Made by a program: the position numbers and the translations under genes
The notes under the pieces: model-generated
Seen by the model: the letters and a program-made list of their open reading frames with translations, nothing else
Database searches by the model: none
Told to the model about the DNA's origin: nothing
Source of the DNA: Bdellovibrionales bacterium
GTDB lineage: Bacteria; Bdellovibrionota; Bdellovibrionia; Bdellovibrionales; UBA1609
Reading direction: 5' to 3'
Assembly (NCBI GenBank): GCA_015163875.1
Contig: JAAOIH010000006.1
Span: 1-62,256, forward strand
DNA: 62,256 nucleotides
Shown: one piece after another, positions 4,813 through 29,935 of the stretch
Numbering within the stretch: position 1 is the stretch's first letter
Layout of the letters: each line of letters starts with the position of its first letter

Positions 4813-6225
4813 TTATTTGGGTGCCCAGTTTTTTACTGTGGGGGATTTTGAAAGGTGAGTGCTTGGGGCACTTTGTTCAGTTTGTGTAGGGGCAACTTCT
4901 GTAATTGGATTTGTAAAGCGGCCGTACTCTGGAAACCATGACAAATTTACATAGCCTGTTGGACCGTTTCTTTGTTTTGTTATTATTACTTCTGCTTTGT
5001 TTTTTACCTCTATTTTGTCTGGCTCATAATAAGATTCTCTGTATAGCATCATAATTAAATCTGCGTCTTGCTCTATTGATCCTGATTCTCTTAGGTCTGA
5101 TAAAATTGGCCTTCTGTCTGATCTTCCCTCTACTCCACGGTTTAATTGTGCCAATGCAATTACTGGAATATTTAATTCTTTTGCAACGGCCTTAAGCAAT
5201 CTAGAGATTTCAGAAACTTCTCTTTCTCTGCTTTCTACTTTTTTGCCCGCTGTCATAAGCTGAAGGTAATCAACAACTATTAAATCTAGCCCGTGCTTTT
5301 TTTTCATTCTTCTAACTTTTGCTCTAATGTCTAAAGGTGTTAACGCAGATGAGTCGTCTAAAAATAATGAAGTTTCGCTAAGCTTAGTTGCAGCATCAAT
5401 TAACTTTGGCCAATCTTGATCAGTTAAATTTCCTGTTCGCATTTTTGCTGCATGAATTTCTGCAAGGTTTGAAAGCAGTCTCATCATAAGTGCTTCTTTA
5501 GCCATCTCTACAGAAAAGAAAGCAACTTTTTTCTTTTCTCTTAAAGCTGCATGAAGTGCTATATTTAATCCCAATGCAGTTTTACCCATAGACGGTCTTG
5601 CGGCAATAATAACAAATTCATTTTCGTGAAAACCAGATGTCATATTATCTAGCGCTTCAAACCCAGATGATATTCCGCTAATTGAACCTTGATTGGCATA
5701 TAACTTTTCAAGAATTGCAACACTTGATTTAACAACAGCGCTTGGCTCTGTTAATTGTTGTGTGTGATTTTTATTTTCTGTAACCGCAAAAATATCTGCC
5801 TCTACCTTGTCAATAAAAGTAGGATACTCTTCAAAGTTTTGTGCGTAAGCTTCGTGACTAATATCACCACAAGTACTAATTAATTTTCTAAGCTTTGATT
5901 TTTCTGCAACAATATTTGCATATTGTGGCAAATAACTAGTTGAGTGAGTTTGCTCTATAATACTACTAAGATATGCATGACCACCTATAACTTCAATTTG
6001 GTTATTGTTTGTTAATAAATTAGATAAAGTTATTAAATCAATTGGCTCATTTTTATAGTTAAGCTTTTCCATTGCCTTAAAAATTTTTTGATGAGCAGGC
6101 TTATAAAAACTATCCTCTGTTAAAAGATGCTGTATATCAGTCCAGGCATTAGGGTCTAGCATAATGCCGCCTAAAACTGAAATTTCTGCTTCTATATTAT
6201 GAGGCGCTTGTTTTTCTTGTGACAT
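4813..6225 (-). CDS. dnaB: replicative DNA helicase DnaB
   Basis: This 470-residue protein has the N-terminal DnaB domain (HNIEAEISVLGGIMLDPNAW) and a RecA-like C-terminal motor. The Walker A motif is ARPSMGKTA (209-217), the Walker B region is LDLIVVDYLQLM, and further motifs are SREREVSEISRLLK and SDLRESGSIEQDAD. It unwinds DNA ahead of the replication fork as a hexamer and recruits primase. The start lies two bases after the stop of the upstream fis-like gene, so the two form an operon driven from the promoter at 6640-6668. It is convergent to rplI, rather than following it on the same strand as in many bacteria. Confidence 0.97.
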   Translation of the reverse strand: MSQEKQAPHNIEAEISVLGGIMLDPNAWTDIQHLLTEDSFYKPAHQKIFKAMEKLNYKNEPIDLITLSNLLTNNNQIEVIGGHAYLSSIIEQTHSTSYLPQYANIVAEKSKLRKLISTCGDISHEAYAQNFEEYPTFIDKVEADIFAVTENKNHTQQLTEPSAVVKSSVAILEKLYANQGSISGISSGFEALDNMTSGFHENEFVIIAARPSMGKTALGLNIALHAALREKKKVAFFSVEMAKEALMMRLLSNLAEIHAAKMRTGNLTDQDWPKLIDAATKLSETSLFLDDSSALTPLDIRAKVRRMKKKHGLDLIVVDYLQLMTAGKKVESREREVSEISRLLKAVAKELNIPVIALAQLNRGVEGRSDRRPILSDLRESGSIEQDADLIMMLYRESYYEPDKIEVKNKAEVIITKQRNGPTGYVNLSWFPEYGRFTNPITEVAPTQTEQSAPSTHLSKSPTVKNWAPK

Positions 6226-6227
6226 AT

Positions 6228-6596
6228 TTATTTATTAATAAACTTAGTTTTTTTTTTAATACAAATTTGGTAATCATTAATTTTTTTCTTTAGTGTGTTG
6301 CGACTAAAACCTAACAGATGCGCAGCCCTTAGTTGGTTTCCTCTATATTTTTTTAATGCTAGTTCAATTAAAGGTCTTTCCATTTGCTCTTTTAAAATAT
6401 CAAACAAATTTTCTACATCATCTAAAACAGAGTTATTAAGCAGATACTCTAATTTACAATGTATAAGTTCTTCTAAACTAACTTCTGTAATGTCTGCAAC
6501 AAAAAGATTGTCTGAACAATTATAATGTAACTGACCAGAGTCCACACTATTTTTAGGCTGGTTCATGCTAGAGTGTCTAAAAAAATCAGAGTTCAT
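6228..6596 (-). CDS. Fis-family DNA-binding protein
   Basis: This 122-residue protein ends in a Fis-type helix-turn-helix: MERPLIELALKKYRGNQLRAAHLLGFSRNTLKKKINDY, about residues 70-110. Fis proteins bend DNA and act as nucleoid and promoter regulators; the same fold caps NtrC-type activators, but no AAA+ domain is present here. The N-terminal 55 residues are unlike E. coli Fis. AAAGG precedes ATG 6596. It is transcribed with dnaB two bases downstream, an arrangement that could link chromosome architecture to replication (inference). Confidence 0.85.
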   Translation of the reverse strand: MNSDFFRHSSMNQPKNSVDSGQLHYNCSDNLFVADITEVSLEELIHCKLEYLLNNSVLDDVENLFDILKEQMERPLIELALKKYRGNQLRAAHLLGFSRNTLKKKINDYQICIKKKTKFINK

Positions 6597-7401: not shown

Positions 7402-7428
7402 TTATACATGACTTATGATGATTTTCAA
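7401..7428 (-). promoter_or_regulatory. promoter for queE
   Basis: On the reverse strand, TTGAAA (7428-7423), a 16-base spacer and a perfect TATAAT (7406-7401) predict a start near 7394. The -35 half lies inside the first codons of ftsK. This placement is the main reason for preferring the downstream TTG start of queE. Confidence 0.5.
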
Positions 7429-9825
7429 AGAGACATTCATGGAGTTTTGTGGCTCAGTTTGGCCATTTTTTTAGGCGTGTCTTTGTTTTCATATCACCCA
7501 TCTGACCCGTCCATGTTTTTTTGGACAAAAGCTGATATTAATAATCTGTTTGGATTTTTGGGCTCAAATGTCTCTTACATTCTTTATAAAATGTTTGGAC
7601 TTTTTGCATGGGTGTTTGTTTTTATGGCCGGAAATTTATCTTACCAAACTTTTAAATCTCAAGATTGGGGATTTGGTTTAAAACAAATTTTTTTATATCT
7701 TATCCTAAGTGTTATTTTATGCTCCTTGTCGCAAGCACATTTTATGGACAGCATATTTTATAAAAATATTGTTGTTGGAGGTGTAATAGGTAATTTTGTT
7801 GTTAACTTTTTAATTAAAACTTTAAATTGGTGGGGGCTGGTTATTAGTTTGTGGACATGCTTGTTTATTGTAACACTTGGGCTAACACAAAAATCTTTAA
7901 AAGACTTGTCAGAAATTATTTATAAAAATATTAAATTTATTTTTAGTAAAAAATTTCTTAGAGCTATATTTTTTCCACTACAAATTATAAAAGTTATTTT
8001 TTTATTTGTTTTGTTAAAATTAAGAGCTTTGTGGAAAACAGGTAGCTCGCAAATTTCTTTTTTATCACTAAAAGACAGAAAAAAAATTAAAGACAATCAA
8101 AACGAAGAATACGAAGACGAAGAATATGAAGATGAAGAATATGAAGATGAATACGAAGATGAAGAAGAAGACGAATGCGAAGAAGACGAAGAGTACGAAG
8201 AGGGCGGCAATTACAGCGAAGACGACATAGAAAAAAAACAAAAACTAAAAAGTGAAAAAAAAATAAAAACCAGAGCAACTAAAAAGAAACGAAAAGTAAA
8301 AATGAAAGTTTCTATAAAAAGAAAATTAGGACACTGGACACTCCCCAAGATATCTATTTTGTCAGACCCACCCCTAACTAGAGAAAGGGTAACTCCACAA
8401 GAGATTGAAGAAAAATCTGCACTTTTAAAACAAAAATTAGAACAATTTAATGTTTCCGGAGAAATAGTAAATGCATTTCCAGGGCCGGCTGTAACTTTGT
8501 TTGAATTTAAACCAGATATTAATGTTAGAGTTAGCAGAATCACAGACCTTGCCGATGATTTGTCACTGGCACTAAGCAGTGAGTCTGTTAGAATTATTGC
8601 ACCAATTCCGGGGCGAAATGTTGTTGGAATTGAAACATCTAACTTAACAAGAGAAACAGTTTACTTAAAAGATATTATAGCAGACAAAAAATTTTGGACA
8701 GAAGATTGTTATTTGCCAGTGTCTTTAGGTCAAGATGTTGGAGGTTTTTCTAATATTGTAGATTTGCGAAAAATACCACATATGTTAGTGGCAGGGTCAA
8801 CGGGTTCTGGAAAGTCTGTTTTTACAGTTTCTGTTTTGTGTAGTTTTATTTTTAGACATACTCCAGACTCTTTAAGATTAATTTTAGTTGATCCAAAGCA
8901 AGTTGATCTTGCAATTTTTGACAACATTCCACATTTGTTAACTCCTGTAATTCGTGATCCAAAAAAAGCAGTTCGTGTTTTAAATTGGGCTATTAAAGAA
9001 ATGGAAAAAAGATATAGATCAATGTCTCAATTTAATGCCAGAGGTCTTGAGGCATTTAACTCTCATGTTAAAAAGTTTTCTGAAAAACAAATTTTAGAGC
9101 ACTTTCAATTTAATCAAGATTGTCCAAAAAGAGAAAGTTATTATTATGAAGAGCAGCCGTATATTGCAATTATTGTAGAAGAGTTTGCAGATCTTATGGC
9201 AGTTGATAAATCAAATGTTGAACAAGCAGTTGTTAGATTAGCGCAAATGGCCAGAGCCTGTGGAATTCATTTAATTTTAGCAATGCAAAGTCCACGAAAA
9301 GATGTTGTTACGGGATTAATAAAAACAAATATTCCAGGAAGGGCCAGCTTTAAAGTTGCAAGCAAAACAGATTCAAGAATTATTTTAGACGAAGGCGGAG
9401 CCGAGCGTTTGTTAACAAGAGGAGATATGTTATTTTTAGCCCCCGGAATTTCTAAACCAAAAAGATATCACGGGCCGTGGTTACCAGATGAAGACATTAC
9501 TGATTTAATTAATTTTTGGAAGGGCCAGGGCGATCCACTATATGACGAACAGGCAATGCAGTTTTTAAACGGACAGTCAGAGGAAAGAAATAATAGCGCA
9601 AGTTCTTTTGACAATGACGACAAAGACGAACGATACGATGAAATTTTAGAAGCAGTTTCTGAAATGAAAATTGTTAGTGCATCTTTGCTTCAAAGAAAAT
9701 TTAGATTGGGCTACCCAAGAGCTGCAAGAATGATTGAGTTATTTGAACAAGCAGGAATTGTTGGGCCTCCACAGGGAAGCAAGCCAAGACAAGTTTTGGC
9801 AAATAATCCAGAAGCAGAAGTATAA
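7408..9825 (+). CDS. ftsK: FtsK/SpoIIIE-type DNA translocase
   Basis: This 805-residue protein has four N-terminal membrane segments (about 10-170), an acidic linker (about 231-270), then alpha/beta motor domains and a C-terminal winged-helix gamma domain (about 745-805, LLQRKFRLGYPRAARMIELFE). Walker A is GSTGSGKS (about 464-471) and Walker B follows YIAIIVEEFADLM. FtsK pumps DNA through the division septum and activates XerCD recombination at dif via the gamma domain. The linker is short and very acidic, unlike the Pro/Gln-rich E. coli linker. There is no clear ribosome binding site before ATG 7408. Confidence 0.95.
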   Translation: MTYDDFQRDIHGVLWLSLAIFLGVSLFSYHPSDPSMFFWTKADINNLFGFLGSNVSYILYKMFGLFAWVFVFMAGNLSYQTFKSQDWGFGLKQIFLYLILSVILCSLSQAHFMDSIFYKNIVVGGVIGNFVVNFLIKTLNWWGLVISLWTCLFIVTLGLTQKSLKDLSEIIYKNIKFIFSKKFLRAIFFPLQIIKVIFLFVLLKLRALWKTGSSQISFLSLKDRKKIKDNQNEEYEDEEYEDEEYEDEYEDEEEDECEEDEEYEEGGNYSEDDIEKKQKLKSEKKIKTRATKKKRKVKMKVSIKRKLGHWTLPKISILSDPPLTRERVTPQEIEEKSALLKQKLEQFNVSGEIVNAFPGPAVTLFEFKPDINVRVSRITDLADDLSLALSSESVRIIAPIPGRNVVGIETSNLTRETVYLKDIIADKKFWTEDCYLPVSLGQDVGGFSNIVDLRKIPHMLVAGSTGSGKSVFTVSVLCSFIFRHTPDSLRLILVDPKQVDLAIFDNIPHLLTPVIRDPKKAVRVLNWAIKEMEKRYRSMSQFNARGLEAFNSHVKKFSEKQILEHFQFNQDCPKRESYYYEEQPYIAIIVEEFADLMAVDKSNVEQAVVRLAQMARACGIHLILAMQSPRKDVVTGLIKTNIPGRASFKVASKTDSRIILDEGGAERLLTRGDMLFLAPGISKPKRYHGPWLPDEDITDLINFWKGQGDPLYDEQAMQFLNGQSEERNNSASSFDNDDKDERYDEILEAVSEMKIVSASLLQRKFRLGYPRAARMIELFEQAGIVGPPQGSKPRQVLANNPEAEV
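8104..8200 (+). repeat. degenerate 15-base tandem repeat encoding the acidic FtsK linker
   Basis: Units resembling GAAGAATATGAAGAY repeat in frame and encode EEYED-type blocks rich in Glu, Asp and Tyr. Length variation here would change the linker without a frameshift when whole units are gained or lost. Confidence 0.7.
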
Positions 9826-13458: not shown

Positions 13459-15384
13459 ATGTTAAAGCTTGCGCTGATAACCAAAGCAGCTATTTATTTT
13501 TCTGCATTTAAATTACTTCCAATATTTTTAATATTTAACGCAAGCACTGGGTCAAATATTTCTGTTGTGGAATTAGTAAGATCACAGGCTCAAAAAATTA
13601 GCGTAGATGGCGGAGTTAGCGCTTATGCAATTATAGAAGACAGCTTTTTTTTATCAAAAGACATAGTAAAAAATAATACAGATTTAAAAAACATAGAAAC
13701 TCAATTATATGCAATGTCTTTTTTAAATGCTAATAAAAATTTTATACAACCAATAGGGGAGTTTAAAAAAAATATTTATAGCAATTTTTCTAAAGAGCTA
13801 GTTACTGGAAATTTATTTAATTGGTCTGCGTGGTATAAAGAAGTTAATCAAAATGGCGGCGGCATAGTAGTAGACCAAAAACAAACTCAGCTTTTAATAG
13901 CAAGTAATAATTTAAAAGAAAAAATACAAAAAATACAAAAAATTAAAAACAGAATTGCGCCTAATCTTTCTGGAAAATTTTTATTAAAAGACGGTTTATT
14001 TATTAATTATGCAAAAATATTTATTTATCAAAGCCTTAATGGATTAAAAGTTTCAGAAGCAAAAATTAATTATAAAAAAGCATCTTTTTATTTTAAAAAT
14101 TTAGTTCCAGGCGGCTATATAGTTGCAAAACTAAAAAGTATATCAGGAGAATTAATTGGATTTTCTGAAGTACATACAAAAAAAATATTGTCCCCACTTG
14201 TTTTAAATATCAGAGATGTTTCTGGCGGATTAAAAGGAATGTCTTTATCTAGCAAGCCATTGTGGGAAAAAAGTTTATATGGACTAAAATCTAAAATAAA
14301 TTCTAATTTTTATGTAGAGTCATTAAATAGAAAAATTTTAAAAAGCAATAACCTATACAGAGATATTAATTTAAGCAACAGCTCTGATTATTTATTGGGC
14401 TCCTATGATTCTAAGCATTGGCCCAGCTTATATTTTGGAAATACATTTGGCATAAACTCCCTGTACTCTTTTTCAAAATCTATGATTACATCTGTTTTAT
14501 ATTTATTAAACTTTAACATTAAAAAATCTAGAAGGCCTGCCATTGTTTTTGGAAGAGTGTCTTATAACGGAAAGCCAGTGGCAGGTGCAAAACTTAAAAT
14601 TTATGGGTCTAAAATAAAACCAGCATATTTTGATAATTGGATTCCAAGTAAAGACCTACTTAAAACTAGTAAGTCTGGATTGTTTGCATTTGTTGGGCTA
14701 AGCAGTGGAGTTAGTTCAATAGTGGTAGAATCTTCAAAACATTCTTATAACACAAAATTTGTTCCGATTAAAAATGGAAAAGTTTCTTTTATAGATTTTA
14801 TTGAATCAAAAAACAAACCAAAACAAATTTTATCTTATGATTTATTTTCTAAAAATTTTGTACCCGCTAAAATAAAATTATTGGGCTCTGATAAAGCAAC
14901 TGTTATTTTAAAAAACAAAGCAGTTAATATTTTACAACAAAATAATGGAGAAAACTTACAGTTGTTTGAGGTAGAGGCAAAAAATTCTGATTATCAGCAA
15001 TTAAGTACAATTTCTTTTTCTAATAAAAACCAGTTAGAAATACCAATGATTCGCAAATCGTGGGTTAATATGATGTCTAATGGTATAAAATTTATTACAG
15101 GCAGCAGTATTTTGATTGGAGTTAATCAAAAGCCAGAAAAATTTAGTGCAAATATTAAGTCTTTACTAGAGTCGCCTTATTATTTTGAAAATAATTTAGT
15201 GTATTTTGATAAAAAATCACAAATTTATAAAACACCAAACTTAAATACAATTGGGTTTATTGCCTTTAATTTGCCAGCAGGCATATATAGCGCAAACCTT
15301 GTAAAAAGAGAAAATTCTTCTTTAAAAACCACCACAAAGCTTGTTATTTCTGAGCCAAAAAGTGTCCAAGTATTTAAATTTTAA
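13459..15384 (+). CDS. large exported protein with a carboxypeptidase-regulatory-like domain
   Basis: This 641-residue protein has an N-terminal hydrophobic signal or anchor (about 5-28, ending FNASTGSNIS). About residues 360-430 form a beta-sandwich like carboxypeptidase-regulatory (transthyretin-like) domains: AIVFGRVSYNGKPVAGAKLKIYG, later SKSGLFAFVGLSSG. An earlier segment (about 170-245) has a similar VPGGYIVAKLKS strand pattern and may be a second copy. Such domains are structural modules of surface or adhesion proteins. No catalytic motif is seen. It is probably periplasmic or surface-exposed and may be expressed with the preceding lipoprotein. Confidence 0.65.
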   Translation: MLKLALITKAAIYFSAFKLLPIFLIFNASTGSNISVVELVRSQAQKISVDGGVSAYAIIEDSFFLSKDIVKNNTDLKNIETQLYAMSFLNANKNFIQPIGEFKKNIYSNFSKELVTGNLFNWSAWYKEVNQNGGGIVVDQKQTQLLIASNNLKEKIQKIQKIKNRIAPNLSGKFLLKDGLFINYAKIFIYQSLNGLKVSEAKINYKKASFYFKNLVPGGYIVAKLKSISGELIGFSEVHTKKILSPLVLNIRDVSGGLKGMSLSSKPLWEKSLYGLKSKINSNFYVESLNRKILKSNNLYRDINLSNSSDYLLGSYDSKHWPSLYFGNTFGINSLYSFSKSMITSVLYLLNFNIKKSRRPAIVFGRVSYNGKPVAGAKLKIYGSKIKPAYFDNWIPSKDLLKTSKSGLFAFVGLSSGVSSIVVESSKHSYNTKFVPIKNGKVSFIDFIESKNKPKQILSYDLFSKNFVPAKIKLLGSDKATVILKNKAVNILQQNNGENLQLFEVEAKNSDYQQLSTISFSNKNQLEIPMIRKSWVNMMSNGIKFITGSSILIGVNQKPEKFSANIKSLLESPYYFENNLVYFDKKSQIYKTPNLNTIGFIAFNLPAGIYSANLVKRENSSLKTTTKLVISEPKSVQVFKF

Positions 15385-15432
15385 AGACAATTTTTGATTT
15401 ATAAGATTTTTTGCATATTTTTTACTTTTTAT

Positions 15433-15460
15433 TTGCAAGGATTTGATGTTGTGCTAGAGT
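15433..15460 (+). promoter_or_regulatory. promoter of the histone gene
   Basis: TTGCAA (15433-15438), a 16-base spacer and TAGAGT (15455-15460) with an extended -10 TGC predict a start near 15467. The leader would then contain the inverted repeat GCCTA-AA-TAGGC (15473-15484) before the AAGGAG ribosome binding site. Confidence 0.5.
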
Positions 15461-15472
15461 CTATGAAACTAT

Positions 15473-15484: not shown

Positions 15485-15519
15485 TGTAACATGTAGGCGT
15501 CAAATATAAGGAGATAATC

Positions 15520-15714
15520 ATGGCTGAAGTACTAGTAGTAGCGAGTAAGGTAAAAAAATATATTAAAGAAATCGGTGGTTGCAACACTTCTTCAGATACA
15601 GTAGCTGCATTAAGCCAAGCTGTTGAAAGACTATGCAAAAAAGGCATTGAAGCTGCTAAAAACGAAAATCGCAAAACAGTAATGGATCGCGATATTATGA
15701 GAGATCATATTTAA
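15520..15714 (+). CDS. bacterial histone-fold protein
   Basis: This 64-residue protein is essentially one histone fold: helix 1 (about 3-17, VLVVASKVKKYIKE), long helix 2 (about 24-50, SDTVAALSQAVERLCKKGIEAAK) and helix 3 (about 56-63). The loop between the last two helices reads RKTVMDRDI, the RKT...D signature of archaeal and bacterial histones. The size and the MAEVLVVASKVKKYIKE start match my memory of the Bdellovibrio histone Bd0055, an abundant, unconventional DNA-binding chromatin protein. There is an AAGGAG site before ATG 15520. Histone tails are absent. It probably coats the nucleoid. The family call is secure; the DNA-binding mode is inferred. Confidence 0.93.
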   Translation: MAEVLVVASKVKKYIKEIGGCNTSSDTVAALSQAVERLCKKGIEAAKNENRKTVMDRDIMRDHI

Positions 15715-15790: not shown

Positions 15791-16438
15791 TTGCGCAAAT
15801 GGATTTATACTCCTTTAATTTTTGCGGGACTGTTATTTTTTTTAGGAAATATTATTTCTATTTCCTATATTTCAAACTTTGTTGATGGCTCACTTGAATC
15901 TGTTTCGACTTGGTTTGTATATCCTATGTTTTCTGGTTTATTAAAAGCAACGCTGTGGATTAGTTTTTACATTTTATTATTTTACATAATTTTTAGTATT
16001 TTTTCTATTATATCAAGCCCATTTAATCTTTTTTTAGCAGAGTCTTTGTGTGAAAAAAAAAATTTTTCAATAGCAGCTGAATTAAAAGTATTAAAAAAAA
16101 TAAAGTTATTTTTCTTTTTATTAAAAGTTAGTTTAAAAAGATTATTTATTTTTTCTATTTTAGGTGCAGTATTTTTTGTATTATCTTTTTTACCAGTAGT
16201 GTCTGTTTTTTCTAATTTTGCAATTATGTGGATTATTTCTTTAGACAGCATGGACTATGTTATGGAGCTAAAAGCCATGCCTTTAATCAAGCGTTTAAAA
16301 TTTTCTTTTACCTTTTTTACATTTTTTTTAGGACTAAGTAGCTTTTTATCATTAAGCTTTTTAATTCCAGGTGCACTTTTAATTGCATTTCCATTTATTG
16401 TGCTGGCCTCAACAGAATATTTTATGGAAAATTTATGA
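15791..16438 (+). CDS. CysZ/EI24-like membrane protein, start uncertain
   Basis: This membrane protein has four to six hydrophobic stretches and the EI24-type blocks SSPFNLFLAE and SLDSMDYVMELKAMPLIKRL. The family includes CysZ sulfate permeases and poorly characterised inner-membrane proteins. The first usual start codon is TTG 15791 (215 residues). The same frame is open back to 15701 and reads FFKGFFAFFRGIKLAKEHRSLRKW, just like the family N-terminus, but with no ATG, GTG or TTG. Real translation may therefore begin at a rare codon (ATC 15704 or ATA 15707) overlapping the end of the histone gene. Its stop overlaps the next gene (ATGA). Confidence 0.75.
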   Translation: MRKWIYTPLIFAGLLFFLGNIISISYISNFVDGSLESVSTWFVYPMFSGLLKATLWISFYILLFYIIFSIFSIISSPFNLFLAESLCEKKNFSIAAELKVLKKIKLFFFLLKVSLKRLFIFSILGAVFFVLSFLPVVSVFSNFAIMWIISLDSMDYVMELKAMPLIKRLKFSFTFFTFFLGLSSFLSLSFLIPGALLIAFPFIVLASTEYFMENL

Positions 16439-29611: not shown

Positions 29612-29935
29612 TTAGTATCGTCCGCCGCGACCACCGCCGCCGCCGCCGCCACCGAATCCACCACCGCCGCCACCGCGAGGTCTGTCTTCTTTTGGTCTAG
29701 CTTCGTTTACTTTTAATGAACGACCTTCATAATCTTGGCCATCAAATTTTGAAATAGCTTTTTGTGCTTCGTCATCAGTTCCCATTTCAATAAATCCAAA
29801 GCCTTTACTACGGCCTGTGTCTCTATCTGTAATAAGTGTGATAGTTTCTACTGTTCCACATTCTGCAAATGAATCGCCTAATGTTTGTTCTGTTACTGTG
29901 AAGGGAAGATTCCCTATGTATAGTCTTTTACCCAT
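29612..29935 (-). CDS. RRM-type RNA-binding protein with glycine-rich tail
   Basis: This 107-residue protein is one RNA-recognition motif with RNP2 LYIGNLP (4-10) and RNP1 KGFGFIEM (about 44-51), followed by a Gly/Arg-rich tail (about 86-107, RGGGGGGFGGG). Bacterial proteins of this layout (Rbp family) bind single-stranded RNA and are often cold- or stress-induced. The flexible tail may aid RNA contact or condensation. A purine-rich AGAGG site lies upstream. Confidence 0.93.
   Translation of the reverse strand: MGKRLYIGNLPFTVTEQTLGDSFAECGTVETITLITDRDTGRSKGFGFIEMGTDDEAQKAISKFDGQDYEGRSLKVNEARPKEDRPRGGGGGGFGGGGGGGGRGGRY

Follow-up and report, generated by a model that had tools for sequence, protein, structure and literature searches.

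The window, by which we mean the whole stretch of 62,256 nucleotides analysed here (Bdellovibrionales bacterium, contig JAAOIH010000006.1), carries a small histone gene. The gene and the features that bear on it are as follows.

15520-15714, plus strand: histone gene of the HBb/Bd0055 type, 64 amino acids with a single histone fold; the only histone found in its own genome.
15508-15515, plus strand: Shine-Dalgarno-like aaggagat ahead of the histone ATG (aaggggat at the equivalent place in the congener).
15425-15463, plus strand: upstream block TTTTTATTTGCMAG...ATGTTGTGCTAGAGT, conserved with the congener; a possible promoter, with no consensus sigma-70 match.
13459-15384, plus strand: protein of 641 amino acids with a weak prealbumin-like stretch, upstream of the histone.
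15791-16438, plus strand: EI24/CysZ-like membrane protein, downstream of the histone; start codon uncertain.
6228-6596, minus strand: Fis-like protein with a C-terminal HTH_8, 9 kb away from the histone gene; the linkage is conserved in many relatives.

The open reading frame at 15520-15714 was called with the product MAEVLVVASKVKKYIKEIGGCNTSSDTVAALSQAVERLCKKGIEAAKNENRKTVMDRDIMRDHI, a 7-kDa protein with a computed pI of 9.06. The earlier note had described it as a 64-residue single histone fold with an RKT...RD signature, which corresponds to R51-K52-T53...R57-D58, and this description was borne out by the sequence, the predicted structure and the presence of the gene across the order. The claimed likeness to the Bdellovibrio histone in size and start was also correct, as the MAEVLVV start and the length agree with Bd0055, and the strong ribosome site was found as the good site AAGGAGAT directly 5' of the ATG. 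The promoter-like element is weaker: a scan of the plus strand upstream of the gene gave no sigma-70 consensus promoter above threshold, but the congener shares the block that includes TTGCMA...TGCTAGAGT. By transfer from HBb, the protein would be expected to be abundant.

Two other products of the window are side observations. In an FtsK-like protein of 805 amino acids (7408-9825, plus strand), the membrane part and the motor are separated by a long run of acidic repeats, EYEDEEYEDEEYEDEYEDEEEDE, and a lysine-rich stretch after it. A small glycine-rich protein of 107 amino acids (29612-29935, minus strand), with a KGFGFIEM motif and a GGGGG tail, appears by eye to be a bacterial RNA-recognition-motif (RRM) protein.

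HBb (Bd0055) of the predatory Bdellovibrio bacteriovorus, whose structures have been solved both free and bound to DNA, was used as the main reference. The window histone aligned with it without gaps and with 41 of 64 residues identical (64%), and a phmmer search of the PDB matched its full length to 8fvx (1.2e-20) and 8cmp (1.3e-20). In the profile search proposed in the earlier note, the general profiles remained below their curated cut-offs (Pfam PF00808, CBFD_NFYB_HMF, 21.0 bits, just under the gathering score of 21.4; NCBIfam NF043032, archaeal histone, 30.5 bits against a cut-off of 50), while phmmer matched HBb at about 1e-20. Annotation based on the cut-offs alone would therefore miss this gene. 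Archaeal nucleosomal histones gave weak sequence scores to the window histone, and no relatives of it were found in viral contigs.

An AlphaFold2 monomer model, made with a 39-sequence alignment, had a mean pLDDT of 84.4 and showed two longer helices (residues 6-19 and 25-48) and a third of a single turn (56-58). In this model the histone fold proposed earlier was retained, and the HBb structures 9ezz, 8fvx, 9f0e and 8cmp were ranked first by Foldseek against the PDB (TM about 0.8, up to 0.86); archaeal HTkC, Leptospira HLp and nucleosome histones came next. The model has the shortened alpha2 and the alpha3 cut to about one turn that characterize HBb-type histones. Together with the sequence and the presence of the gene across the order, it supports orthology, and the window gene is confirmed as the direct counterpart of Bd0055/HBb.

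The residues were then compared using the DNA-binding sites, clamp and dimer-core roles assigned in HBb (PMC11317129). In the first DNA-binding site, K12, T23, S24, K52, T53 and R57 are as in HBb and A25 is replaced by serine; in the second, S9 and K10 are kept and T8 is replaced by alanine. The comparison of the DNA-contact face suggested in the earlier note thus gave eight of ten residues identical, with T8A and A25S as the differences. The RD clamp residues R51 and D58 are identical in the two proteins, and D49 is changed to glutamate. In the dimer core, V11, L31, L38 and I59 are conserved and I35 is valine. By sequence, the RKTxxxD motif with the clamp residues (R51 K52 T53 ... D58) is present, and so are the conserved alpha1 lysines (K10, K12, K13, K16), which would answer approximately to the published positions 11/13/17. 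Relatedness to HBb (E 1e-20, 64% identity) is accompanied by an order-wide distribution in bacteria. HBb and the window histone, which come from the same order, share length, start, short alpha2, one-turn alpha3, RD clamp, RKTV and S9-K10 motifs, most DNA contacts and the dimer core; they differ by 23 substitutions, including T8A, A25S, D49E, G50N, A56D and I61R.

These residues bear on the oligomeric class. HBb positions S45, A48 and I61 are those that were mutated so that HBb brings DNA ends together like archaeal histones (PMC10627809); the window histone has A, N and R there, where the archaeal type would have F, H and L. Archaeal HMfA/HMfB share the histone fold, RKT loop and RD clamp with it, but have longer alpha2 and alpha3, a sprocket arginine and a tetramer histidine, all of which are missing here: N48 stands instead of the histidine at the alpha2 end, and alpha3 is short instead of three turns long. 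A face-to-face (FtF) tetramer like that of Leptospira HLp, with about 60 bp of DNA wrapped per tetramer, was also considered, since in the structure search HBb was followed by HLp (Leptospira perolatii) and archaeal HTkC, which have the short alpha2 and alpha3 in common with the window histone; HLp also has the RD clamp. However, HLp's R and N, which we equated with R48 and N52, the residues conserved at the FtF dimer-dimer interface (PMC11390915), align with A45 and E49, and identity is 64% to HBb compared with about 38% to HLp (34-38% to HLp and HTkC), so that we regard such a tetramer as extremely improbable. Because both the archaeal-type and the face-to-face residues are missing, the window protein is predicted to be a dimer of the 'bacterial dimer' class, a group defined by sequence clustering (PMC11390915). 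It adds one more ortholog to the 'bacterial dimer' alpha3 histones and, since the HBb histone has already been described from this clade, is largely expected.

HBb is abundant, enriched in the nucleoid and apparently essential, and two binding modes are in dispute for it, one that sheathes straight DNA (PMC10627809) and one that bends it (PMC11317129). The window histone is very probably an HBb-type dimer that contacts the minor groove through L1/L2 and the start of alpha1, and serves as a non-specific major nucleoid protein beside HU/IHF. Homodimers would form through the alpha2 helices, the L1 and L2 loops (T23, S24, K52, T53, R57) would contact the minor groove together with the start of alpha1 (S9, K10, K12), and the dimer would coat or bend DNA without sequence preference, beside HU/IHF and the Fis-like protein. 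By analogy with HBb, dimerization, DNA binding, bending or sheathing, abundance and essentiality would apply to it as well. Against such a role stand alanine at the DNA-contact position T8, asparagine at G50 and arginine at I61.

The alignment profile found the histone in 135 of the 141 genomes of the order; the six genomes with no match are incomplete assemblies. Among genomes that are clean and at least 90% complete, a match was obtained in all 103, the matches in genera g2 and g14 being of a diverged form. Since orthologs, though strongly diverged in a few cases, occur in every near-complete genome, a histone is the rule in this order. The window species has a genome of 1.29 Mb (93% completeness) with the histone in single copy, and a second histone, including the longer type of other members, was not found by genome search. 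Compared with the only congener, 11 of 16 changes fall at third positions, dN is 0.034 and dS is 0.334; as judged from this ratio of about 0.1, the gene is under purifying selection.

T8A, D49E and G50N are common to both members of the genus, at positions that are fixed in 26 other orthologs sampled, and E26 is altered in the window species only. A56D was dropped as a genus-specific change because it recurs in one other relative (L066). The shared changes, together with the histones of sister small-genome genera that lack the RD clamp, would fit a protein whose fold was kept but whose role drifted away from chromatin, for instance to that of a protein-complex subunit. This drift is nevertheless highly unlikely, as the clamp, the L1 and L2 contacts and the basic charge are kept, position 49 is still acidic, and the gene is under purifying selection. 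The nucleoid role of an HBb-type dimer remains our preferred reading.

Among 80 named loci, the histone gene and ligA converge tail-to-tail in 74, nine of which were counted by hand from coordinates. Unlike the HBb gene, the window gene is no longer convergent with ligA: the EI24/CysZ-like gene occupies the place of this usual neighbour, and ligA of the same genome is on another contig. About two dozen loci, among them that of B. bacteriovorus, have a distant homolog of the 641-aa gene on the upstream side of the histone, and therefore the left flank looks ancestral. The simplest reading is vertical inheritance with local rearrangement.

Three sister genera of the same family, g2, g14 and g15 (genomes of 1.4-2.0 Mb), have a histone counterpart of 67-74 amino acids instead of canonical HBb, which was not found in the eight genomes searched. 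The window histone is not of this kind.

L124-L131 (for example L124:1501-1704, plus strand, 67 amino acids): clamp-less counterparts in g2, g14 and g15.

In the alignment of these proteins R51 is replaced by L, D58 by H and R57 by N, A or H, while K10, K12 and K52 are kept throughout and T23, S24 and T53 in most. Their profile matched HBb first in the PDB (2e-10), and a predicted model retained the histone fold; this fold assignment is supportive, not independent, because the alignment behind the model contained canonical sequences. In five of the eight genomes the clamp-less gene and ligA are tail-to-tail (once with one intervening gene); in one more, a ligA close by has the same orientation, and in two no ligA was seen within a short flank. 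A paralog with differential loss was rejected, as strong matches of the clamp-less form's own kind occur only in the eight genomes, which lack the canonical form, in nearly every other genome its profile matches canonical HBb best, and five of the genes lie at ligA in the tail-to-tail arrangement.

The Fis-like protein matched Fis at 2e-9 and NtrC at 0.016, but scored 49.1 bits against the NCBIfam Fis equivalog, below the cut-off of 99, and is Fis-like by sequence. It does not lie next to the histone, as had been claimed, but 9 kb away. About a dozen relatives have the two genes at a distance of 9-17 kb, a conserved long-range linkage that does not by itself demonstrate shared function. A mixed nucleoid system, suggested earlier from the Fis-family neighbour, finds better support in the genome's HU/IHF-family genes, of which there are three. 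Directly downstream of the Fis-like gene, and in the same orientation, lies dnaB (4813-6225). Of the genomes that carry the clamp-less histone, most (G002, G014, G122, G123, G133 and G134, representing g2, g14 and part of g15) show no comparably strong short Fis-like ortholog, in which they differ from most relatives, and their best Fis-like matches fall mainly within long NtrC-type frames; in G015 and G124 the Fis-like stretch is doubled.

The retention of an HBb ortholog in the genome of about 1.3 Mb of an uncultured relative suggests that keeping the histone pays even when the genome is very small. We tentatively suggest, as a possibility that may well prove wrong, that small-genome branches reshape the HBb histone: the window genus would keep a canonical histone altered at DNA-contact and loop positions that are otherwise fixed, and the sister genera, mostly at the ancestral ligA locus, would have a form without both clamp residues and R57. 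If this is true, a bacterial histone could do without the RD clamp, which is common to the canonical histones compared, and the DNA binding or oligomer state of the reshaped histones would have changed. The clamp-less counterparts offer natural variants for probing the role of the RD clamp in a bacterial histone.
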